Assembly: GCA_947446575.1 (NCBI GenBank)
Contig: CANFHC010000001.1
Coordinates: 62,001 to 126,000, forward strand
Source of the DNA: Bacteriovoracaceae bacterium
GTDB lineage: Bacteria > Bdellovibrionota > Bacteriovoracia > Bacteriovoracales > Bacteriovoracaceae
DNA: 64,000 nucleotides
Direction: 5' to 3'
The notes beneath the pieces were generated by a model. It saw only the letters and a list, made by a program, of their open reading frames with translations, was not told the origin of the DNA and did not search any database. Numbering within the stretch: the stretch's first letter is position 1; the number at the start of each line of letters is the position of its first letter. The position numbers were made by a program, and so were the translations under genes. Below are positions 10,480 to 55,600 of the stretch, piece after piece.

Positions 10480-11940
10480 TTATTGTATTGTTGATGGAGC
10501 TCTACGACCAAGATCTTGGATTAGCTCGGCTTGAGTCGAAAGAGCAGTTGCCGATATGATTTTTACGTCTACCCAATGCCATTTGAAATCTATTTCAGTA
10601 TTTTCCGGAACAAAGTGGACAATTCTGTTACAGTTTGTGCGACCCTTCCATTTTTTTATCCCCCCCATATTTCCATCGCTATCAACAAGCACGCGATAAG
10701 TTTTTCCGATCATCGTCTGGTGAATTTTATCTTGGATTTTTAATTGATGGGCTTGAATTTCACGAAGTCTTTCCCCTTTTACGTCATTAGGAAGATTATC
10801 TTCCATTTTTTCCGCTCGAGTTTTAGCCCTTGGTGAATAAACATATGAATAAATAAAATCAAACTGGGCTTTATCCAAAAGATCGATTGTTTCTTTGTGC
10901 TCTTCTTCTGTTTCATTAACAAAACCGGCGATGATATCTGTCGAAAGAACGATTTCAGGTTGAGCTGCTCGCAATTTTGTCAATAATCCCAAATAATGCT
11001 CTGGTGTATATTCTCTATGCATTCTCTCTAGCACTGTTGCTGATCCGGATTGAACAGGTAAATGAAGATGCTTTGATAATTTTTTTGAACTTCCGTGAAC
11101 TGCGATTAATTCGTCGCTGACATCATACGGATGTGATGTTGTATAGCGGATGATTTCAAGACCGTCGATTTTATCAAGCTCAGTAATAAGTTGAGCTAAA
11201 CTTTCACCATTTTCTTTTCCATATGAGTTTACGTTTTGTCCTAAAAGTGTGACTTCTTGAATCCCTTGGTACTTCACAAGCTTTCTTACGTCTTCAACAA
11301 CTTCGGCCATTAAACGTGATCTCTCTTTTCCGCGAGTATAAGGGACGATACAGTACGTACAATACTTATTGCAGCCTTTAATGATGTTTACGAATGCTTG
11401 TGGTGAGTCCCCAGAGACTTTTGTTTCGATTGAAAAATTCTCACTTCGATCCCAAGAATTGATCGTAAACTTACTGTCACCGGCATAAACACGAAAGACC
11501 ATATCGTTGATCGTATCAATAACATCAGTTCCGAAAGCAAAGTCTAAATGTTTATACTTTTTTACTAATTCCTTACCTTCAGTTTGGGCCACACAACCGC
11601 CAATCCCAACAACTAGGCCACCTTTTTTCTTTTTTGCATGCTTAATCTCACCTAATTGCGAATAAAATTTATTATTCGAAAGGTCTCGGACCGCACATGT
11701 ATTAAATAGGACCAGATCAGCCTCATCTAATTCTTCTGTTTTTTGAAAATTGAGATCTTGAAGATGGGCCGCGATTCGGTCTGAATCGTGATAGTTCATC
11801 TGACAGCCAAATGTTTTCATCCAGACTTTGCGCGGAGGAAAAGCGAGATCACCCATGACTACTGTTTTTTCACCTGTTACTGGATCGATGATAGTTTGTT
11901 CGCGAGGACCATCGCCTCTTGTACCTAGACCTGTTGCCAT
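10480..11940 (-). CDS. miaB: tRNA-2-methylthio-N6-isopentenyladenosine synthase
   Basis: MiaB is a radical-SAM methylthiotransferase that adds a methylthio group to i6A37 of tRNAs reading UNN codons. The 486-aa protein shows the UPF0004 domain with its three cluster cysteines (TFGCQMNYHDS, FNTCAVRD, IGGCVAQTEG), the radical-SAM CxxxCxxC motif (GCNKYCTYCIVPYTRG) and a C-terminal TRAM domain from about residue 410. A 40-residue N-terminal extension before the UPF0004 domain is unusual but in frame. It has its own terminator downstream and a gap of about 170 bases upstream. The partner miaA is not in this window. Confidence 0.95.
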   Translation of the reverse strand: MATGLGTRGDGPREQTIIDPVTGEKTVVMGDLAFPPRKVWMKTFGCQMNYHDSDRIAAHLQDLNFQKTEELDEADLVLFNTCAVRDLSNNKFYSQLGEIKHAKKKKGGLVVGIGGCVAQTEGKELVKKYKHLDFAFGTDVIDTINDMVFRVYAGDSKFTINSWDRSENFSIETKVSGDSPQAFVNIIKGCNKYCTYCIVPYTRGKERSRLMAEVVEDVRKLVKYQGIQEVTLLGQNVNSYGKENGESLAQLITELDKIDGLEIIRYTTSHPYDVSDELIAVHGSSKKLSKHLHLPVQSGSATVLERMHREYTPEHYLGLLTKLRAAQPEIVLSTDIIAGFVNETEEEHKETIDLLDKAQFDFIYSYVYSPRAKTRAEKMEDNLPNDVKGERLREIQAHQLKIQDKIHQTMIGKTYRVLVDSDGNMGGIKKWKGRTNCNRIVHFVPENTEIDFKWHWVDVKIISATALSTQAELIQDLGRRAPSTIQ

Positions 11941-12060
11941 AAGATTACCCTGTTAAAAAGCCTTATTGCCTAACGTTTTGAATGTGGGGGGAAGTTAACA
12001 GGATGGTGGCCAGAAGTAAACGGATTGGAAAAATTACATTGAGATTGAACCCCTAAAATA

Positions 12061-12083
12061 AAAAAGGGACCTCGAAAGGTCCC
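12061..12083 (-). terminator. Terminator of the histone-like gene
   Basis: The stem GGGACCT (12066-12072) pairs with AGGTCCC (12077-12083) around a CGAA loop. A-tracts on one side and T-tracts on the other make it symmetrical. On the minus strand it follows the histone-like gene by 25 bases and ends in a run of T. Confidence 0.85.
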
Positions 12084-12108
12084 TTTTTTAACTAGGTCGC
12101 TTAATAAA

Positions 12109-12285
12109 TTAAGCTTTCTTAGCAGCTTTTTTTGTAGCTTTTTTAGCTACTTTTTTCGTAGCTTTTTTAGCTACTTTTTTAGCAGCTTTTTTAGCTACTT
12201 TTTTCGTAGCTTTTTTAGCTACTGCTTTCTTAGCTACTTTTTTAGTAGCTTTCTTCTTAGTTGTTGTTGCTTTTTTAACAGCCAT
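12109..12285 (-). CDS. Histone H1-like Lys/Ala-rich DNA-binding protein
   Basis: The 58-aa protein is made almost entirely of Lys, Ala, Thr and Val in tandem KKATKKVA/KKAAKKVA-type units, like the C-terminal tail of histone H1 and the bacterial H1-like/AlgP-type proteins. It should be an unstructured, highly basic DNA- or RNA-binding protein acting on the nucleoid. The start is ATG at 12283-12285, with GGAGG five bases upstream; an upstream TTG in frame would include the ribosome binding site and is rejected. The DNA is a tandem repeat of lysine/alanine codons and so is prone to length changes between strains. It has its own terminator, suggesting a highly expressed single-gene unit. Confidence 0.8.
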   Translation of the reverse strand: MAVKKATTTKKKATKKVAKKAVAKKATKKVAKKAAKKVAKKATKKVAKKATKKAAKKA

Positions 12286-44856: not shown

Positions 44857-46032
44857 TTATAGAGTTAGAGTGTCTATAAAACTATTGTGTTTGTAAGTCA
44901 TCTCTTGGAATTCGTCCTCGGCTTCACTCAAGAGCGTAATTCCTCCACCTGCTTGGAAAAGGAGTGTCCGATTTTCTGTCGTAAAATCAATCTCACCTGA
45001 CCTGATATTGATAGAAGCACTCTTCATCTTTTTTAGGAGAATCAAGGTTGATCCACAGTAAAAACCTCTGTGTCTTTTTTCTAATTGATAAATTAAGCGC
45101 ATCGCTCGCAACTTAGGAGCTCCTGTTATGCTTCCGCCTGGAAAAATTTTTTCAATGACTCTCCATAGACTCACATTATCCGAGAGCTCCACATCGATTT
45201 GGGAGCATTGATGAATAAGTCCCGGGACGAGTTTGGGAAATTTCTTTTTTACGATTTGTGCTTGTGGTTTTTCAATGCGCGAAAGATCGTTGCGTAATAA
45301 ATCACTGATCATATAAAGCTCTGCCTGACTTTTTTTATCACGCTTTAGTTTCTTCCAAAGTGGTTTCCAATCTGCACAATCTACTCTTTTAAAAGTTCCT
45401 TTAATTGGCATACTCGAAAGCGTATTGCCCTTAAATTGAAATAAGCATTCAGGAGAATTACTCAAATAGAGCTTTTTGAATATTGGAATATAAGTGGCTG
45501 AACCAAAGGCACCACGTTTTCTTTCGTTTTTCCATAAGGAAAAAACAAAATCCAGAGGCTCGTAATCTTCATCAAAAGAGTACTCGTAAGGACAAGTTAA
45601 ATTAAATTGATAACAATTTCCTTGTAACAATTCGACGTACCCTTTATCGAAATCTTTTTTATACTGAACAATATTAGGACTAGATTTTAATTTTAGTTTT
45701 ATCTGTGGAGGTAAGCCCGGTGATATTTTTTGAAATTTTTCATACTCACAATCAATCGCAAGCAATGTTTCTTCAGCGATATAAGCCAATTCGTTTTCAA
45801 TATAAAAACCCAATTCATAAAACAGATGAATAACTCTAGGATGAATTGTTTCTTCATTAATTTTCTTTTTTTCTAATGAACTAATCCAATTTGAAAAATT
45901 GGAAACTATTTTTTCACCCGTTAATAGATTAATCGCGTGATTTTTATAATACGCAAAACCAGAAATCGGTTTATCCAATTTTATTAAATAATCTTTATAA
46001 GGAATGATTGAATAAAAACTAAGGTCCGTCAC
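44857..46032 (-). CDS. pabB: Aminodeoxychorismate synthase component I (PabB-type)
   Basis: The 391-aa chorismate-binding enzyme has the segments CYQFNLTCPYEY, SMPIKGTFKR, DLLRNDLSRI, IEKIFPGGSITGAPKLRAM and AGGGITLLSEAEDEFQEM, the last two being catalytic. The 'PIKGT' sequence fits the PabB class with catalytic Lys, rather than anthranilate synthase, so the product is aminodeoxychorismate for folate. It is shorter than the usual 450 residues, lacking part of the N-terminal domain. Its start overlaps the end of dnaB by 14 bases. The glutaminase partner pabA is not in the window. Confidence 0.82.
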   Translation of the reverse strand: MTDLSFYSIIPYKDYLIKLDKPISGFAYYKNHAINLLTGEKIVSNFSNWISSLEKKKINEETIHPRVIHLFYELGFYIENELAYIAEETLLAIDCEYEKFQKISPGLPPQIKLKLKSSPNIVQYKKDFDKGYVELLQGNCYQFNLTCPYEYSFDEDYEPLDFVFSLWKNERKRGAFGSATYIPIFKKLYLSNSPECLFQFKGNTLSSMPIKGTFKRVDCADWKPLWKKLKRDKKSQAELYMISDLLRNDLSRIEKPQAQIVKKKFPKLVPGLIHQCSQIDVELSDNVSLWRVIEKIFPGGSITGAPKLRAMRLIYQLEKRHRGFYCGSTLILLKKMKSASINIRSGEIDFTTENRTLLFQAGGGITLLSEAEDEFQEMTYKHNSFIDTLTL

Positions 46033-47362
46033 GATGAGCTAAGTTTTCAAAGCTGGTATAAGCACCAACCCAAGCAAGTTTCGCCGTTCCAATTTCTCCA
46101 GCACGGTTTTTACCAATGATAATTTCCGCAATCCCTGGCTCTTTAGTGTCTGGATAATAAACTTCATCTCTATATACGAACATAACGATATCGGCATCCT
46201 GCTCGATTGCTCCAGATTCGCGAAGGTCAGCAGTAGATGGACGTTTGTTAGGCCGTGACTCAACACCACGATTAAGCTGAGAGAGAGCTATAACTGGACA
46301 GCCAAGTTCTTTGGCCATGGTCTTTAAACCTCTGGAAATTTCCGCGATTTGCTGTTCACGCTGAATATTTTTGCTCGTTGATCCCATTAACTGTAAGTAG
46401 TCGATGACGATTAAACCTAGACCTTGGTCTGCTTTAATTTTTCGACACTGACTTTGAATATCTAAAATAGTCGTGTTACCTGAATCATTTATATAAATCG
46501 GCAGAGCAGATAATTCTTGAGTGGCTTTTGCAATACTTCTTAAATCTGTATCCAAGAAAGCTTTTTTGCGAACTCGTTTTGAGTCTACTTTCGCGCGACC
46601 TGTAAGAAGTCTCATTGAAAGCTCTGTCGCCAACATCTCGAGAGAAAAAATTGCTACAGGAAGTCCTGATTGAATACATGAGCTAACCGCGACGTTTAGA
46701 GCGAGTGATGTTTTTCCCATCGCAGGACGAGCTGCTAGAACAATTAATTGTCCTGGTTGCATTCCAAGTAAAAGTTCATCGAGACGAGGATATCCTGTAG
46801 AGAGACCAGCTATCTCGCCCATCAAGCGGCTTGTATCTTCTAGTTCTTTCAAGTTTTGTTTTAAAGTAGCATTTAATTTTACCATTCCACCCGTTTTGGC
46901 ATCATTAGTAAGTTTGAAAAATTGCGATTCTACATCTTGAATAAAATCTTCAGCATTTCCAGTAAAAGTCATTCCCATTTGAACAACTCTCATTGCTGTT
47001 CTTAGAATTTCTCTTATTGAAGATTTATCTTTAACAATTTTTCCGTAGTCATAAACGTTTGCTGAAGAAGCTTGATCTTCAACTAAACTTAGAACAAATG
47101 ATTGTCCGCCGATTTCTTCAAGTTTTCCTTTTTCTTGAAGTTTCGAGCACACAGTAACGTAATCGATCGCGCGATTAGCAAGTGAGAGATCGGCGATCAC
47201 ATCATAGATCATACCGTAGCGTGGATCGTAAAATTGATCCGAGGTGATTTTTAAATTTGAGATTTCATCAAAGACGGATCCGTCTATAATCAAACATCCG
47301 ACTAATGCTTTTTCAGCAAGAAGATCGTGTGGAAGTTCATTTACTTGATTATTGTTGGCCAT
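46019..47362 (-). CDS. dnaB: Replicative DNA helicase DnaB
   Basis: DnaB is the hexameric 5'-3' fork helicase. The 447-aa protein has the N-terminal domain that binds primase (PHDLLAEKALVGCLIIDGSV), and a RecA-like domain with Walker A AARPAMGKTS, 'SLEM...L..R' and Walker B IVIDYLQLM, then DLRESGAIEQDADIVMF. Length is typical. It follows the rplI terminator by 20 bases and has pabB overlapping its end. The order rpsF-rpsR-rplI-dnaB is widely conserved. Confidence 0.96.
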   Translation of the reverse strand: MANNNQVNELPHDLLAEKALVGCLIIDGSVFDEISNLKITSDQFYDPRYGMIYDVIADLSLANRAIDYVTVCSKLQEKGKLEEIGGQSFVLSLVEDQASSANVYDYGKIVKDKSSIREILRTAMRVVQMGMTFTGNAEDFIQDVESQFFKLTNDAKTGGMVKLNATLKQNLKELEDTSRLMGEIAGLSTGYPRLDELLLGMQPGQLIVLAARPAMGKTSLALNVAVSSCIQSGLPVAIFSLEMLATELSMRLLTGRAKVDSKRVRKKAFLDTDLRSIAKATQELSALPIYINDSGNTTILDIQSQCRKIKADQGLGLIVIDYLQLMGSTSKNIQREQQIAEISRGLKTMAKELGCPVIALSQLNRGVESRPNKRPSTADLRESGAIEQDADIVMFVYRDEVYYPDTKEPGIAEIIIGKNRAGEIGTAKLAWVGAYTSFENLAHRDGP

Positions 47363-47441: not shown

Positions 47442-48056
47442 TTAAGAACGAAGAAGTTTATCAACTTCTGCTTTTAATCTTTGCTCTTCAGTAAGCTCAG
47501 CAACTGGAGTAGCTGTTACACCAGATTCTTTTGCTTCAGCAGCAGCTTTTTTACGTGCTTCTGCAGCTTTTAGAGCTTCTTCTTGATTTCTCTTAAGCTC
47601 TTCAGCTTGTTTTGGATCAATAGAAACTTTTACTTTGAAAGTCGCTTCAACATCTTGGAAAATTTTCGCTTTAGCATTGAAAATTCCTAGACCTTTGATT
47701 GGAGATTCTAAGTGAATCAATCTTCTTTCAACAACAAGACCGCGGCTTTCAAGTTCTTTTGAAAGTTCAGCGTTTGTTACAGTTCCAAAAAGTTTACCAC
47801 TTGCTCCAACTTTTTTAATAAGTTCGATAGTAGTTCCTTCGATTTTTTTCTTAAGTTCTAAAGCTACATCTTTTTGGCCTTGAATTTTTTTCGCAAGACT
47901 TTTTTGTTGAGCAGCTAATAGGTTTTTGTTCCCTTCGTCAGCTACCATCGCAAAACCATTTGGCACTAGATAATTTCTAGCATGTCCAGCTGATACGTTT
48001 ACGATTTCACCGATATTTCCTAGAGCAGGAACTTTTTCAGTTAAAATAACTTTCAT
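47442..48056 (-). CDS. rplI: Ribosomal protein L9 with C-terminal extension
   Basis: The first 150 residues are L9: MKVILTEKVPALGNIGEIV with the VSAGHARNYLVPNGFA loop, the central helix rich in Lys and the C-terminal domain with GKLFGTVTNAELSKEL. Then follows about 55 residues of charged helix (ELKRNQEEALKAAEARKKAA) not usual for L9, which is about 148 aa. The ATG overlaps the stop of the DUF2232 gene by four bases. Confidence 0.92.
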   Translation of the reverse strand: MKVILTEKVPALGNIGEIVNVSAGHARNYLVPNGFAMVADEGNKNLLAAQQKSLAKKIQGQKDVALELKKKIEGTTIELIKKVGASGKLFGTVTNAELSKELESRGLVVERRLIHLESPIKGLGIFNAKAKIFQDVEATFKVKVSIDPKQAEELKRNQEEALKAAEARKKAAAEAKESGVTATPVAELTEEQRLKAEVDKLLRS

Positions 48057-49066
48057 AATATATCTCCTTCATCCTTTTTTGAATTTGTAAAAAACTTCCT
48101 AAAATCAAACCATAGATCAAACATTCCTAAGATAGCTAAAAATTTGTACGCCATCACTAAAGTGAAAACGACAAACATTGTCTTCAAGAATCCGCCGATT
48201 TTTAAATAATGCAAAAATGCATTATAAACGCCGAATCCTTGAAAAAGATAAAACACGCCTAAGCAGTATAATAAGTTGTTCCCAACTATCTCAGCAACTT
48301 TAGGAAGACCGTAATCTCCTCCGACAATGCAAACCAAAGAGACAATCAATGGCCATACGAAAAAGTCTGGAGCTCTGAAATTAATCAGATCCTTAAGAGT
48401 ATACGAGTAAAGATTTTTATAGCGCCATACAACTGAATTACGGAGTGTCATATAAAGACTGACCCATAAACCGAAGAAGGCAAAAACAAAGATGATAGCT
48501 GGCAGAACGCTGTAAATTTCATTAGAAAGCTCTTCTGGCTTAGAAATAAAATCTTGGAACGCGCGTGCCTCTTCACCATTTGAATTCAACGCTTCATTAT
48601 CTTTATTCTGCTCTTTAACCATCGTCATTAATTTCACCACAGAAGTTTGAAGTTCTGTTTTTACTGAAATCTTACTAAGCTGATTAAAGCCTACAAGTGA
48701 CCCACCAATTATTGATACGAGAATGAGGCCTGCGTAAATTAATCCTTTAACCGGATTAATATTTCGAAGAATCACTTCCGCAATCAAGATGGCATAAAGA
48801 AATGCAGTTAAGTACATTCCAGCAATCACGAGTGGGATACTAAACTTTACTGAAAGGAACCAAAGAGCACTTGTGCTAAGCCCACCAATGAACAATGTAG
48901 TTAATCGCCCATAGAGAAGAAAAGCTAGGATCAATGGAACAGGAGCAAAAACTGATAGAGGTCCAAATGAGCAAAGGGCAACAGAAATAACTGCAAGAAA
49001 CACTAGCTTCCCGAAGGATGCTCTGTGATCGAACATTTTGTTGCTTTGAACTTCTGGTTTAATCAT
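48053..49066 (-). CDS. DUF2232 (YybS-like) membrane protein
   Basis: The 337-aa protein has about eight membrane segments and a soluble loop of about 50 residues around residues 130-180. Its place between rpsF/rpsR and rplI is typical for DUF2232/YybS-type proteins, whose function is not established. The middle segment YAILIAEVILRNINPVKGL and the C-terminal YLFQGFGVYNAFLHYLKIGG resemble the family. Its end overlaps the rplI start (ATGA), with the rplI ribosome binding site GGAG inside its last codons. Confidence 0.75.
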   Translation of the reverse strand: MIKPEVQSNKMFDHRASFGKLVFLAVISVALCSFGPLSVFAPVPLILAFLLYGRLTTLFIGGLSTSALWFLSVKFSIPLVIAGMYLTAFLYAILIAEVILRNINPVKGLIYAGLILVSIIGGSLVGFNQLSKISVKTELQTSVVKLMTMVKEQNKDNEALNSNGEEARAFQDFISKPEELSNEIYSVLPAIIFVFAFFGLWVSLYMTLRNSVVWRYKNLYSYTLKDLINFRAPDFFVWPLIVSLVCIVGGDYGLPKVAEIVGNNLLYCLGVFYLFQGFGVYNAFLHYLKIGGFLKTMFVVFTLVMAYKFLAILGMFDLWFDFRKFFTNSKKDEGDIL

Positions 49067-49086: not shown

Positions 49087-49728
49087 TTATGCTCTTTCAG
49101 CAGTTTGGTTTGAAAGATAACTTGAAATTCCAAGTTGTCTTGCATGCTTAATAGCTGAATTTGAAAATCTTTGGTGTTTCATTGAAATACCAGAAACGCG
49201 AGCTGGAGAGATTTTTCCGAATTCAGAAACTAACCAGTTCCAAGTTTGAGGATCTTTCCAATCTGCTTTGATTTTCTTAGCTGTGAACCAGCAAGATTTT
49301 CTCTTAGCAAATTTACGACGATCGTCTTCCATATCTTCGAAACCTTCTTCGTCATCATCTTTCTTGTTATCAAGAACTGATCCGCGGCGAGTTTTTGAGA
49401 ATGGAGAAACAAATGCTTTTTCAAGAGTTTCTTTTTCTGCATCGTTACCGATTACGAAAATCATTGAGCGCATTACGCCTTCGTTGATACCAAATCTTCT
49501 AGACAACTCAGTGTTAGCTTGAGTGTTTGCCTTGAACATAAAGTAATGGAAATGACCGTGTTTAGCTCCATTAGCATATGGTTGTGCTAAATGAAGTTTT
49601 CCCCAATCGTCAGCGATTAAAAGTTCTCCTTCGAACCCTTTTAATGCGTCTTTAACGATTTCTGCGATCTGTGCGTGAGCTTCTGAACCTAGCTCGGGCT
49701 TTGTCACTACTGACAACTCATAAATCAT
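49087..49728 (-). CDS. Fused ribosomal proteins S6 and S18
   Basis: One 213-aa frame holds S6 (residues 1-100: MIYELSVVTKPELG, KLHLAQPYANGAKHGHFHYF, RRFGINEGVMRSMIFVI), an acidic linker (about 101-137, including DDDEEGFEDMEDD) and S18 (about 138-210: KRKSCWFTAKKIKADWKD, FGKISPARVSGISMKHQRF, IKHARQLGISSYL). In other bacteria rpsF and rpsR are separate neighbours, and the proteins form a heterodimer on the 30S platform, so a fusion keeps the pair at 1:1. No stop or second start with a ribosome binding site lies between them. A structured leader lies upstream. Confidence 0.9.
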   Translation of the reverse strand: MIYELSVVTKPELGSEAHAQIAEIVKDALKGFEGELLIADDWGKLHLAQPYANGAKHGHFHYFMFKANTQANTELSRRFGINEGVMRSMIFVIGNDAEKETLEKAFVSPFSKTRRGSVLDNKKDDDEEGFEDMEDDRRKFAKRKSCWFTAKKIKADWKDPQTWNWLVSEFGKISPARVSGISMKHQRFSNSAIKHARQLGISSYLSNQTAERA

Positions 49729-49731
49729 AAA

Positions 49732-49780
49732 TCCCCCTGGACTAATAAAAATTAGGTCCAGCCCCCCTATGGGACTGGAC
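49732..49780 (-). promoter_or_regulatory. Structured leader of the S6-S18 gene with alternative hairpins
   Basis: Reading the minus strand, GUCCAG (49780-49775), CUGGAC (49761-49756) and GUCCAG (49742-49737) follow one another. The middle segment can pair with the first, enclosing a CCC/GGG inner stem, or with the third. The second option adds four UAAU/AUUA pairs, one bulged C and a U4 loop. The third segment overlaps the Shine-Dalgarno AGGGGGA (49738-49732), which lies three bases before the AUG. The second hairpin would hinder translation. The first could also serve as terminator of the preceding protease gene. Confidence 0.55.
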
Positions 49781-49813
49781 GAGTAATTAAATTTGAATCA
49801 GGGGAAGATAACA

Positions 49814-52690
49814 TCAATGTTCTAACATAGGAAGGAATTTGAGAGAGAGTTGCTTGTTGGAATCGGTGCACAAAAAGGCATAATTAAAGCTTGATTTCTC
49901 CTCGAGAGTTTCAGGATTTAACGGCACACATCCAGAAATAATATCAATACTTAAGCGCAGTGGTCTGATAAGGCCATTTTCGGTGCCTATCATACTGTAA
50001 AGACGTTCACCATAAATCAAAGTTGAATTAATAAACACTCCAGGGCGACCTTCTGAAAGTATTGGCATAAGCGTCTCAGAAAAATTTTGGCCCGGAAAGC
50101 TAGAATCTCTATACACAGGAAGTTCAGAGTGATCTCCATTATTCGTTAAAAAAGTGATACTCGAGCGATTTTCAACCAGAAAACTCTTATCTCCCGAGTT
50201 ATCAAAACCACCAATTAAACCAATAATTGGATTTTCCCATTCTTGCTTTAAGACTAGAGGAACCAAAACTCCCGTATCGTTTTTCACTAAAAATTCTGCA
50301 TTGGCGCGATTGAGTAGCGAAGTAAGAATAGATTCATTGATCATTGCTCCACTCTTGGTATTTAAGATTGGATAAATTAAAGCTCCATCTAAACCCATTG
50401 CACTTGTTAAAGATTTCGACTGAATACTATTTACAGCTAAAATAAGTTCTAAATAAGTCGATTTTGTTCCATCATTAAGACTTGCTAGAGAATGAATTTC
50501 GCCCCTGCTTGCTTGTAAACTTGTTTGAGGAAAAGGTTTTATGATTGTGATTGTTTGATCGTCGTATAAATGAAAATCACTTCTCATTTTTTTCATCACG
50601 GTGACATTATCGACAACTCGCAATTCAATCTTCATGACATCGTCTATAGCAGACAACTTTGGATTTAAGTAATACTGATGGTTTCCAGCAGTTGTTACTC
50701 GATCTAAAATATTTTTTGAGTTATCAACTTCTGGCATACCATATGTTTTAAAAATAGAAGGAACTAAGATTGAGCCCAATTGAGTGCTGGTAACTTTTAA
50801 CCATTCAAATTTTTCTATTCCACCATCAATCGGTAGTCCTTCAAAAGTTGAAAGAGTCATCGCCCATTTTGAATATTTTCCAAATAATGGATTTAAACTA
50901 GAATCAAAATTAAAAAATAATAATTCATCTTTTTTAACAGAAAGAGCATAGATAAAATAATCCAATTTCCCGTCTTGATTGATATCTTGACGGTGAATTG
51001 AAAGCACACGATTAACCAATGGAAGTGTGATCGTTTTAACGACAAAGGCATCGTCAACTTTAGTTAGAAGCGAAACAACTGTTGAAGTTGCATTTTGCTT
51101 TGATTTTTCTAAGAAAAAATATTCTGGAAAATTTAAGCGGTGAAATTTATCCATCACGCGAGCCATACGAGAAAGTTTACGATCTGGAGTCATAACTCCC
51201 ATATCATCAAAATTTCCACCAGCTATCGGCATTGATATTACTTCAGAGTCGTTATTTAAATCGCGACTAAAAACAAGACTTGTCTGAAATAATTTTTGAT
51301 CTACCTGAATAGTCATATTTAAATGAGAATCACTACTTAAATCCAGTAAAGTCCCAGCGATATTAAGTGTTGTAATCGAATGCCCTTTTATGTCTTTTAG
51401 CTCAAAACAATTTTGATCAAAAGACAATGCTTGCGATGAACTGTTTATACATACTGAGCCATTGTAATCAATATTGGATAAGTTTTTTAATGGAAGATTA
51501 AAAGCAAATCGGCGATCAATTACACGAAATTTAATTTCTGTAATCGACTTCACTAGTGGATTTAAAAATGCACTTTCTTCATTAGTTTGAGCTAAACTTA
51601 AAAGATTTTTTAAATCTAACGCACCAAATTTTACTGAACGATTGTTTTTACTTTTATTCAAGGCCCTTGAACTTCTAAAAATCAAAGATCGGACTCTATC
51701 GTTTGATAATCCAGGATTTAATAATTTTAAGGTCGCTACAGCAGCTGTTAAGTACGGAGCAGCCTGGCTAGAGCCGCGCTTAACATCGTAATTAGCAATT
51801 CGTAACACGCGCGATTCAATATTCGTTGGAATCGTACTGATAATGTATTCACCAGGAGCAACCATATCAACTTTTGATCCAAAATTAGAAAAACCAGTTA
51901 GCTCACCACGATTATCAATTGCCCCCGTACAGACAACATTTTCATAGGCACATGGAAAAGTGGGAAGATCTTTTGTGTTATTTCCTGAAGCTGCAATAAC
52001 CATTACGTTTTGCTCTTCTGCCAATTGGAAGGCTTGGCGAACTTTGGCAGTATCAATTAATTTAGGCCATCCTAAACTTAGGTTAATAACTTCAGCTCCA
52101 TTCTTAATGGCAAAAATCATGGCATCAGCAATAACATCAGTAATTAATTTTCCGTTATAAACAAAACCATTTACTTGAGAATTTAAAACTTTAATGGGCA
52201 TAATTTTAATTCTGGCATCGGCTGCACCCGCTATACCGATAGAATTTCTATTGGCAGCAATTGCTCCAGCAACGTGTGTTCCGTGGCCGACATCATCACT
52301 TACATTGTTATTACCATCTAGAAAGTTAAAACCGTTACACGCTAAAATTTTAGCGTTTGGTGCGTTTGTACATAATTTTTCATTATACCAAATTCGTCCT
52401 TTTAGATCGGGATGATTAATATCTACACCACTATCGATAACAGCAACGATTAAATCTTTTTTTGATGTAGCAATGGCACTCGTATCTATCCAATTAATAT
52501 CATTTCCAGGAATTCCTTTCATACTTACGCGCTCAAGATCTGAAGTCGTTTGCAAAATAACTTGTCCACTATTTTGAAGTGCCCATTGTTTGTTATAAAG
52601 TGGATCGTTGCTCACTAAATTATCTGCGCTCATTGCCATTGATGATAACGTTGCCAGATTCAATAGAGTGAAGAGTGTTGTTAATTTCAT
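49814..52690 (-). CDS. Exported subtilisin-like serine protease (S8) with long C-terminal region
   Basis: The start is ATG 52688-52690, with AAGGGAG upstream and the signal peptide MKLTTLFTLLNLATLSSMAMSA, giving 958 aa. The catalytic triad is Asp86 (VAVIDSGVDINHPD), His136 (DVGHGTHVAGA) and Ser308 (KRGSSQAAPYLTAAVA), with oxyanion Asn237 (AASGNN). The remaining 600 residues are beta-rich and include DINQDGKLDYFIYAL and GGFDNSGDKSFLVEN, Asp-rich loops like FG-GAP/VCBS repeats. It is coupled to the upstream 1011-aa gene by an ATGA overlap. It is probably secreted or at the cell surface. Confidence 0.9.
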   Translation of the reverse strand: MKLTTLFTLLNLATLSSMAMSADNLVSNDPLYNKQWALQNSGQVILQTTSDLERVSMKGIPGNDINWIDTSAIATSKKDLIVAVIDSGVDINHPDLKGRIWYNEKLCTNAPNAKILACNGFNFLDGNNNVSDDVGHGTHVAGAIAANRNSIGIAGAADARIKIMPIKVLNSQVNGFVYNGKLITDVIADAMIFAIKNGAEVINLSLGWPKLIDTAKVRQAFQLAEEQNVMVIAASGNNTKDLPTFPCAYENVVCTGAIDNRGELTGFSNFGSKVDMVAPGEYIISTIPTNIESRVLRIANYDVKRGSSQAAPYLTAAVATLKLLNPGLSNDRVRSLIFRSSRALNKSKNNRSVKFGALDLKNLLSLAQTNEESAFLNPLVKSITEIKFRVIDRRFAFNLPLKNLSNIDYNGSVCINSSSQALSFDQNCFELKDIKGHSITTLNIAGTLLDLSSDSHLNMTIQVDQKLFQTSLVFSRDLNNDSEVISMPIAGGNFDDMGVMTPDRKLSRMARVMDKFHRLNFPEYFFLEKSKQNATSTVVSLLTKVDDAFVVKTITLPLVNRVLSIHRQDINQDGKLDYFIYALSVKKDELLFFNFDSSLNPLFGKYSKWAMTLSTFEGLPIDGGIEKFEWLKVTSTQLGSILVPSIFKTYGMPEVDNSKNILDRVTTAGNHQYYLNPKLSAIDDVMKIELRVVDNVTVMKKMRSDFHLYDDQTITIIKPFPQTSLQASRGEIHSLASLNDGTKSTYLELILAVNSIQSKSLTSAMGLDGALIYPILNTKSGAMINESILTSLLNRANAEFLVKNDTGVLVPLVLKQEWENPIIGLIGGFDNSGDKSFLVENRSSITFLTNNGDHSELPVYRDSSFPGQNFSETLMPILSEGRPGVFINSTLIYGERLYSMIGTENGLIRPLRLSIDIISGCVPLNPETLEEKSSFNYAFLCTDSNKQLSLKFLPMLEH

Positions 52691-55600
52691 AGAGACTCCC
52701 TTAACCAGCTGCCCGAGAACTCGCCACCAGATAAACCTAATAAATCGCGAACTACATCTAAAGGTCCATTCCACTCTTTGCTACCAATTTTACCCACAGT
52801 ATTTGAATATATTGTGTCGTTTAATATTTCTGAATGTTGTCTAAATCCATCCATAGAGCCGTAAACGTACAGATTGTTCTCGCCAATAAGTTGTTTGAAA
52901 TCTTTAAACTCCAACGAAGCAAGCAAATCATCTATAAGATTTACGTTACATGATGCTTTATCTTCATCATTGTCAGCCTTCTGGCATTTTTTCAAATCCC
53001 ATTTCAGCGCTCCTAGATCACCACACATTGCCGAATTGGCATTTTGATTATCTTCTGCATTACAAGCACGATCTTTTTTATAACGAGCTTCTATTACCTC
53101 AATATCTGAAAGCTTAATTGCATTCAAACGCTCGATACCTCTGTCATATAAATTGAGATGGTATCCGACTCTGAAAAGTCTTAATTTCTCAAAATCAATT
53201 TGATCAACATCAAATAGAGTTGCTTGAAATTTTTCATTTACTTTAAGCATCATCTTTTTTAATTTTTTAGGTGAAAGTGACCATCCTTGCTTAGTATCAG
53301 TGAGTGATAAGAACTTGTGATCAAATTTATTCTCAGCGTTTACTTGCGCTTCAAAACGAATATTTTGTGTATAAGATCGACCAAAGAAACTATCACCTGG
53401 ATTAGCCTGGCCTTCTTCAGTTAAAACAAAGTCACCTTTAGTCTGTTCTGCTAGATAATAGTTGGCCATCTGTTTTGAGAATGCTTCAACATTGACTCCT
53501 CTCATGAAATCTTTGTTCAAGCTGAAATATCGTCCGTTAATTCCATCTTTAGCGTCTAAGTTATAATATGTTTTTCCTTTTATCGACTTCATCTTCCAAA
53601 ATAATAAAGAGAAGCTTGTAGACCTATCGCGAAAATCAGCATCAAGCTTTACTGGAGTTACATTATTATTTAATGTTTCAAAATTTTTATTTTTCAAAAC
53701 ATTGTAAACACCTAAAGCATTTGAATATAAATTTGGGTTTTCATCAAGATCACTTGATAAATTAACCATGTAAGACTTTATATTGTATTTACCAACATCA
53801 TACTGTCCAGTGATTTTCAGAAGTGAAATATATTCATTTACTGAAAAACTTAAATTGATATCTTTAACAAATCCTAAGTCATCAAAGATTTGAAGAATCT
53901 TTGGGCTCTTTTTATAAATGTGAATTCTTTTAATAGTCGTCACACCTGCGCCCACACCAACACCAGCTCCAATTAAGCCAGCTGAAAAATTAAGCTTCAC
54001 TTCTGCCGACGGCATAAGACGATCTGTCATAATAAGTGATTCACCAGTATCTAAGTATTGATCAATTTCTTTTAAAAGCGCTGTGACTTGTTTTGCTTTT
54101 TCATCGTTAGATGCTGATGAGTTTTTTAATTCAGACAATGAGAAATAACGCTCTCGCAGTGATTTCTTTAAAAGATTTACAAACATATTTTTGTACGGTT
54201 CTTTTAAACTTTGTTTTAAATTTTTAACGGGTTTAACATGCGAGAAGGTTCTCACAAGAGCAACCGTTGCCTTCACACTTCCAGATAATCCATTTCCAAG
54301 TCCTTCTACTCCTAAATAAGCACCCAGATTTACACTAGCACCAAAGGTATCGGCAAGTTGAACTAAGTTATCTGTTCCTAAATAATTTCCTAGAACAATA
54401 TCGCGAGAAAAAATTAATTGTGCACTAGCGAGTGGACTACTCCAAGTTTCAACTCCAATAGGTTGAATTTCTCCAGTTTGAATAAAATGATTTAATCCAT
54501 CTTCAAATTGTTTTTGGAAAAATGAACTTCGAACTTTTTTGATATCATACCCTTCAAGGTAAGAATTAAATTTTGTCACTAAGTTATCAATCACATTACT
54601 TTGAAGTTTAGCATAAAGGAAAAATCTCAACTGCTCGAAAGGTGACTCTGCATCTCCATAAGCAAACCGGGAAGCAAAGCCTGGAAATTCTTTATCAATT
54701 ATTTTTCCATCTTTTACACTTTCTCCAATAGATATTTTTTGATTAAAGGCAATTCCTGCACTTTTTTCTTCAAAAAGTCTATTTAGTGAATTCCTTCTTG
54801 AAACAATTTTTTCTGTTAGAACGGCAGCAATGTCACTTGGAAAATAAGCGCCATCAACTATTTCTTTAATATCTGCGCGTGTAAGTTTATTAAGTTTACG
54901 AAGCATCCATTGCGCATCCTCCAGGGTTGTCGCGAAATCATTCCCCGTAAAATGCGAGAAGACCGCAGCGCGGTTATCGATTTTTCCATCAATCCAGCTA
55001 AACTTATTGATACTTTCATATAAGTCTGCCAATGAATAAGGAATTAAAAGTGAGCGCAGCGTTCTGCTATTTATTGTTTGTGTTGGAACACCCATGGCAA
55101 CGTTGTAAAAATCATTTTCAGACGGCTCTGTGATAGCAACATCTTGAATATCTACTGTTAGTTCCTTGGACTTTGTTACCCAACGAGCTGAGGCACCATC
55201 TGTGTTTTCGGGAATTGATTTTTTCAAAAACAATTCGCGATCTTCTACCGAATTAAAACGAATTGAAATATTTTTTAAGTATTTAATCGCTGGAATTTTA
55301 TATCCTAACTTTCTTAAAAGATTTTTTCTCAATAGTAATGTATGCAGCGTTTTATCTAAATGAATCGTAAAAATCTTAGAGCCATTTTCTGGAATAGCGT
55401 TAAAACGGTATAGGCCTGAATTTGAAGTTAAAGATCCTTCAAAGGAGAGAGTTTCGTTATTTCTGACTTCAATTGATTCTTGATCATTAACCGCACTTAT
55501 TTCTTGAGACCAAATTTCATTGGACTTTGGATCTAACAGAGACAAGTCCACATTTTCAAGTGTACTTAAATCCTGAGCTTCTCTAGAAGATACTACATTA

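Follow-up and report, generated by a model that had tools for sequence, protein, structure and literature searches.

In a 64,000-nucleotide stretch of a Bacteriovoracaceae genome (the window), ribosomal proteins S6 and S18 are encoded as one polypeptide, and apart from the product of this fused gene no source of either protein was found in these cells. The single frame, the single copy, conservation across the family and the lack of a general internal start are direct observations, as are a conserved leader structure and conserved rRNA- and leader-contacting residues. From sequence comparison, we consider it likely that the protein represents a natural S6:S18 heterodimer in a single chain and still regulates its own mRNA by feedback, and we infer that the chain would escape cleavage, dock in cis, assemble into the 30S subunit as a unit and act in feedback. 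Fusion of partners is a classic signature of interacting proteins. As far as could be found, a fusion of two structurally partnered bacterial ribosomal proteins is unreported, and the open-access literature (subscription journals being outside the scope) held no earlier report of an S6-S18 fusion.

The ORF list gives a single frame of 213 residues on the minus strand (49728→49087) with both S6 and S18 inside, and the plus strand of the same interval is full of stops. Pfam Ribosomal_S6 (PF01250) matches residues 3-91 with 60.7 bits (cut-off 27) and Ribosomal_S18 (PF01084) residues 151-201 with 48.2 bits (cut-off 21). The protein passes the NCBIfam S18 equivalog TIGR00165 (50.4 vs 38.75) and falls slightly below the cut-off of the S6 model TIGR00166 (41.1 vs 42.9). 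ORF and Pfam evidence thus agree with the first-pass annotation, which had described a complete S6, an acidic linker of ∼37 residues and a complete S18 in one frame, without naming a strand. That annotation had also suggested looking for a separate rpsF or rpsR elsewhere in the genome, and none was found: profile and protein searches of the draft (3.39 Mb, 71 contigs, 95.5% complete) returned the fused gene alone, with no second S6 or S18. Where bS6 and bS18 would be two genes, the window genome has one ORF and no other copy. Downstream on the same strand follow a DUF2232 gene, rplI and dnaB, and these neighbours match those of related loci (Table 1).

Table 1. Positions of the fused gene, its parts, its leader and the neighbouring operon genes within the window.
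Feature	Position	Strand	Basis
5' leader	49733..49783	-	Covariation, pairing test, E. coli rpsF-leader architecture
Leader, CUC strand of H1	49783-49781	-	
Leader, H2 hairpin	49780-49756	-	
Leader, cytosine pair	49740-49739	-	
Leader, Shine-Dalgarno AGGGGG	49738-49733	-	
Fused S6-S18 gene (rpsF-rpsR)	49087..49728	-	213 aa + stop; Pfam S6 + S18; sole copy
S6 part with native tail, residues 1-112 (Pfam core 3-91)	49393..49728	-	Pfam; tail motif YK(S/T)PFS
Acidic linker, about residues 105-141, overlapping S6 tail and S18 N-extension	49306..49416	-	Charge, length, pN/pS
Internal in-frame ATG (M133) with weak upstream AAGG, unconserved possible second start	49330..49332	-	
S18 part, residues 138-213 (Pfam core 151-201)	49090..49317	-	Pfam; K60, R63 and K24 equivalents invariant
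DUF2232 membrane protein gene, same operon	48053..49066	-	PF09991; order common to parsed relatives
rplI (L9), same operon	47442..48056	-	PF03948 + PF01281
dnaB, downstream of rplI	46019..47362	-	PF03796

We compared the gene across 129 genomes of the class, all of them placed in one family in the taxonomy used (Bacteriovoracaceae, to judge by record titles). A match was present in 119 of the 129 genomes, including all 73 of high quality, and both domains lay in one uninterrupted frame in 110 genomes at 36-93% identity to the window protein; three further matches were interrupted by contig ends, and a "stop inside" flag in five of the 110 is the natural C-terminal stop. Named relatives at 75-93% identity are metagenome-assembled Bacteriovorax and Bacteriovoracaceae, and the fused set includes near-closed genomes (G002, with a 3.44-Mb contig, and G128, in one contig). 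Because 110 genomes retain the uninterrupted frame over this range of identity, the fusion is real rather than a product of chance or assembly error. Elsewhere in the phylum, S6 and S18 appeared as separate matches, or just one of the two was matched; the inspected outgroup loci carry separate rpsF and rpsR genes, and the fusion was not seen in the sampled genomes from other families. Looking beyond the phylum, a plasmid search returned solely separately annotated rpsF/rpsR or partial unannotated matches. The search of related genomes that the first-pass annotation had proposed therefore recovers the same fusion, and its suggestion of a lineage-specific ribosomal innovation is borne out by a distribution that is near-universal in one family and unseen in the other families sampled.

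Separate rpsF and rpsR genes, with a ribosome-binding site before rpsR, occur in five family genomes (G001, G019, G025, G063, and G028; loci L055 and L120-L123). In these genomes, free S6 stops a short way past YK(S/T)PFS or a variant motif, and free S18 has a long, often acidic N-extension ending in sequences like DKDRRMFSRKKSCWFC. The fused linkers of 85 family members resemble the native S6 tail and the native S18 extension joined together; they are 24-40 aa long with a median core net charge of -5, and in the window ∼37 residues (about 105-141) separate the globular parts. The linker is under purifying selection, with pN/pS of 0.12 in the window's genus and 0.29 in another genus. The fusion probably arose in an ancestor of most Bacteriovoracaceae by loss of the rpsF stop and of the spacer carrying the rpsR ribosome-binding site, so that the S6 tail continued in frame into the acidic N-terminal extension already present on S18.

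The two gene arrangements also differ in their zinc ligands. The CxxC/CxxH ligands are intact in all five separate S18s of the family, and the second and third ligands are absent from all parsed fused S18s, which consequently lack the CxxC ... CxxH pattern of zinc-binding (C+) S18. The split within the family is complete: separate S18 is of the zinc-binding type, fused S18 is not. We claim no causal link between fusion and zinc loss, because the two changes may go back to a single event on the tree.

The order of fused and separate-gene lineages was not resolved by rpoB alone or by three genes with distant outgroups; 12 genes with nearer outgroups resolved it better. In a tree of L9 and DnaB, G001 and the G019/G025/G063 lineage fall outside the fused clade (bootstrap 94), and G028 is nested inside it (bootstrap 96). 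The 12-gene tree is concordant, with SH support of 0.92 for a clade of the fused genomes, G028 and G026. Two separate-gene lineages outside the fused clade are consistent with one ancestral fusion. In AU comparisons of 12 genes, the best tree unites the fused genomes, G026 and G028 in one clade (p=0.89), whereas a tree that keeps G028 out of the fused clade is rejected (p=0.010). This makes a single fusion followed by reversal or replacement in G028 the simplest account. Independent fusions in two subclades are possible but rather unlikely: linker junctions differ by subclade (YKTPFSKKYNGSV vs YKNPNHT) and the AU test does not reject a tree in which the G019/G025 lineage separates two fused subclades (p=0.20), but the best-scoring topology unites all fused genomes, and the loss of zinc ligands is common to every fused S18.

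Two genomes stand out in this respect. G028 (L123, G028:C31:2750-8477) is a 1.6-Mb genome among fused relatives with separate rpsF and rpsR and a zinc-type S18. Its S18 clusters with the other separate S18s, as would be expected either from horizontal replacement or from an attraction caused by the zinc ligands they have in common. In G026 (L111 / L064, G026:C61, about 11570-12163), an in-frame TAA lies in the linker between S6 and S18, with no ATG, GTG or TTG from the TAA to the S18 core; making S18 there would take read-through or an uncommon start codon, unless the TAA is a consensus error.

Returning to the product of the fused gene, we consider it reasonably probable, judging from conserved sequence features, that the whole class uses the uncut, covalent S6-S18 protein as its sole S6 and S18 of the platform, with pairing made intramolecular, the termini that are modified elsewhere removed, and the chain serving as effector of the leader loop. 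Within the chain, the two domains most likely pair with each other as they do in the heterodimer of other bacteria, and a linker of 24-40 residues should suffice to span the dimer. The fused chain most likely enters the 30S platform as one unit, in a 1:1 ratio fixed by the gene, and platform assembly may be altered as a consequence. An AlphaFold2 model of the fused protein built with ten close homologues reached a pLDDT of 47, too poor to judge docking, and none of the best sequence matches among solved chains spans both domains.

A ribosomal polyprotein, made as one chain and then cut by a protease in the acidic linker to give ordinary S6 and S18, would fit a linker that is acidic, variable in length and probably exposed, like a cleavable spacer, and eukaryotic fusions of ubiquitin to ribosomal proteins are indeed cut. 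We nevertheless regard cleavage as improbable: the 85 variable linkers showed no shared motif resembling a cleavage site, their conserved ends being instead the native S6 tail and the native S18 head, and we know of no reason to retain an always-cut fusion over the lifetime of the family.

In E. coli, S6 receives glutamates at its C-terminus from RimK, and S18 is acetylated at its N-terminus by RimI; the fusion leaves neither of these ends free. The window genome nevertheless encodes a RimK-family ligase (G000:C31:24462-25313; 283.9 bits vs a cut-off of 143.4), which may therefore act on another substrate. RimI and RimK were also considered as co-evolution markers and proved uninformative, GNAT and ATP-grasp homologues being everywhere.

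A second product, free S18 translated from a start inside the linker alongside full-length S6-S18, is very unlikely. The window's genus has an internal ATG (M133) 13 codons before the S18 cysteine with a weak AAGG upstream, and similar sites occur in some other fused genes. However, 34 of the 85 parsed fused genes contain no ATG, GTG or TTG between residue 100 and the first S18 cysteine, which rules out a general internal start, and most fused linkers lack the clear AAGGA or GGAG that precedes free rpsR in separate-gene relatives. The first ATG of the fused genes has a strong Shine-Dalgarno sequence. Finally, the window genome is an incomplete draft, but an artefact, whether a stop codon removed by sequencing or assembly error (which the first-pass annotation had named as what would overturn the fusion) or a second S6 or S18 in the missing 4-5% of the genome, has a negligible chance of being the explanation and was rejected, given unbroken frames in 110 family genomes, near-closed ones among them, and a lone extra copy that looks like a contaminant. 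That copy, the only second one seen among family genomes, is a low-identity S6 (189-aa frame) in G048 (L058, G048:C102), which also carries the fusion; it is probably contamination.

The probable single-chain heterodimer also appears to have kept its regulatory target. The E. coli rpsF leader, through which the S6:S18 complex represses translation, carries the Shine-Dalgarno sequence in helix H1; K60 and R63 of S18 contact two leader cytosines that mimic C719/C720 of 16S rRNA (PMC4647458). A two-helix structure is conserved upstream of the ATG of the fused genes. Its H2 covaries (73 leaders), and the short CUC/GAG pairs of H1, one strand of which is the Shine-Dalgarno sequence, are kept in 96% of cells and vary on one side only. 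Pairing between the 5' flank and the region from the Shine-Dalgarno sequence to the ATG exceeded all 500 permutations (47 dissimilar leaders), and a cytosine pair lies immediately 5' of the Shine-Dalgarno sequence in 75 of 78 fused leaders. The element thus has the layout of the rpsF_leader (RF02893, PMC4647458): two helices, H1 with the Shine-Dalgarno sequence and H2, and a 3' internal loop whose last two positions, just ahead of the 3' strand of H1, are conserved cytosines. It differs in that the window leader is too distant in sequence to score with the Rfam model and in that binding by the fused protein is putative.

Rfam RF02893 (RpsF_leader) gave no match in the window or in nine related loci, and nothing over cut-off in 192 genomes of the phylum. 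The model is narrow, because among the control genomes it scores in E. coli only, missing Bacillus subtilis too. The rpsF-leader-like element at 49733-49783 and its counterparts in related leaders go unrecognised by it.

On the protein side, with rRNA/leader-contact and interface residues taken from PMC4647458, the equivalents of S18 K60, R63 and K24 are invariant in 85/85 fused proteins, so that fused S18 has the residues that touch C719/C720 in 16S rRNA and also touch the rpsF leader. The S6 interface loop A and Q are nearly or fully invariant. The contact set is not fully kept in the window, where the equivalents of S6 R44/Y48 are L/Q and that of S18 R61 is H. Since both the leader-like element and the S18 residues that read it are still there, the feedback loop appears to be retained, with the fused chain as its effector. 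Fused chain made in excess most likely represses its own translation by binding the rpsF-leader-like structure of its mRNA, the Shine-Dalgarno sequence being part of the outer helix of that structure. The first-pass annotation had expected S6:S18 feedback to be changed; given the conserved leader and K60/R63, this idea is refined to a loop that seems retained and an effector that is now one chain.

The pairing step of ribosome assembly thus seems to be built into a single chain across nearly a whole family of predatory bacteria. This offers a natural experiment on whether S6:S18 pairing before rRNA binding limits platform assembly, and on whether the heterodimer, rather than either protein alone, is the feedback signal. 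Both questions become testable with a single-chain effector that is wild type, and close relatives that have separate genes provide the controls. There is also a consequence for annotation, as rpsR could be scored as missing in Bacteriovoracaceae by tools that expect each gene to encode a single protein.

Among known systems, the bS6:bS18 heterodimer of E. coli and Bacillus is the nearest: the same two proteins, in the usual operon neighbourhood with rplI nearby, and the fused protein keeps the rRNA contacts K60/R63 and the interface residue K24. The heterodimer consists of two polypeptides that pair after translation, whereas the fusion is one chain with a 24-40 aa linker; unlike the bS6:bS18 genes compared, it has no priB between the S6 and S18 parts. 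Eukaryotic ubiquitin fusions (S27a/eS31, L40/eL40) likewise place a ribosomal protein within a longer chain, but there the partner is non-ribosomal and the chain is cut, whereas both parts of S6-S18 are ribosomal and natural partners. The bifunctional signalling protein/L9 (NCBIfam NF011110) is similar in that a ribosomal protein of the rpsF-rplI neighbourhood is fused to another domain; it joins L9 to a signalling enzyme, whereas S6-S18 joins two ribosomal proteins.

Directly upstream of the ribosomal operon in the window lies a gene for a subtilisin-like secreted serine protease (49814-52774, minus strand; identified by its motifs DSGVDINHPDLKG and GHGTHVAG), which is functionally unrelated to the operon.
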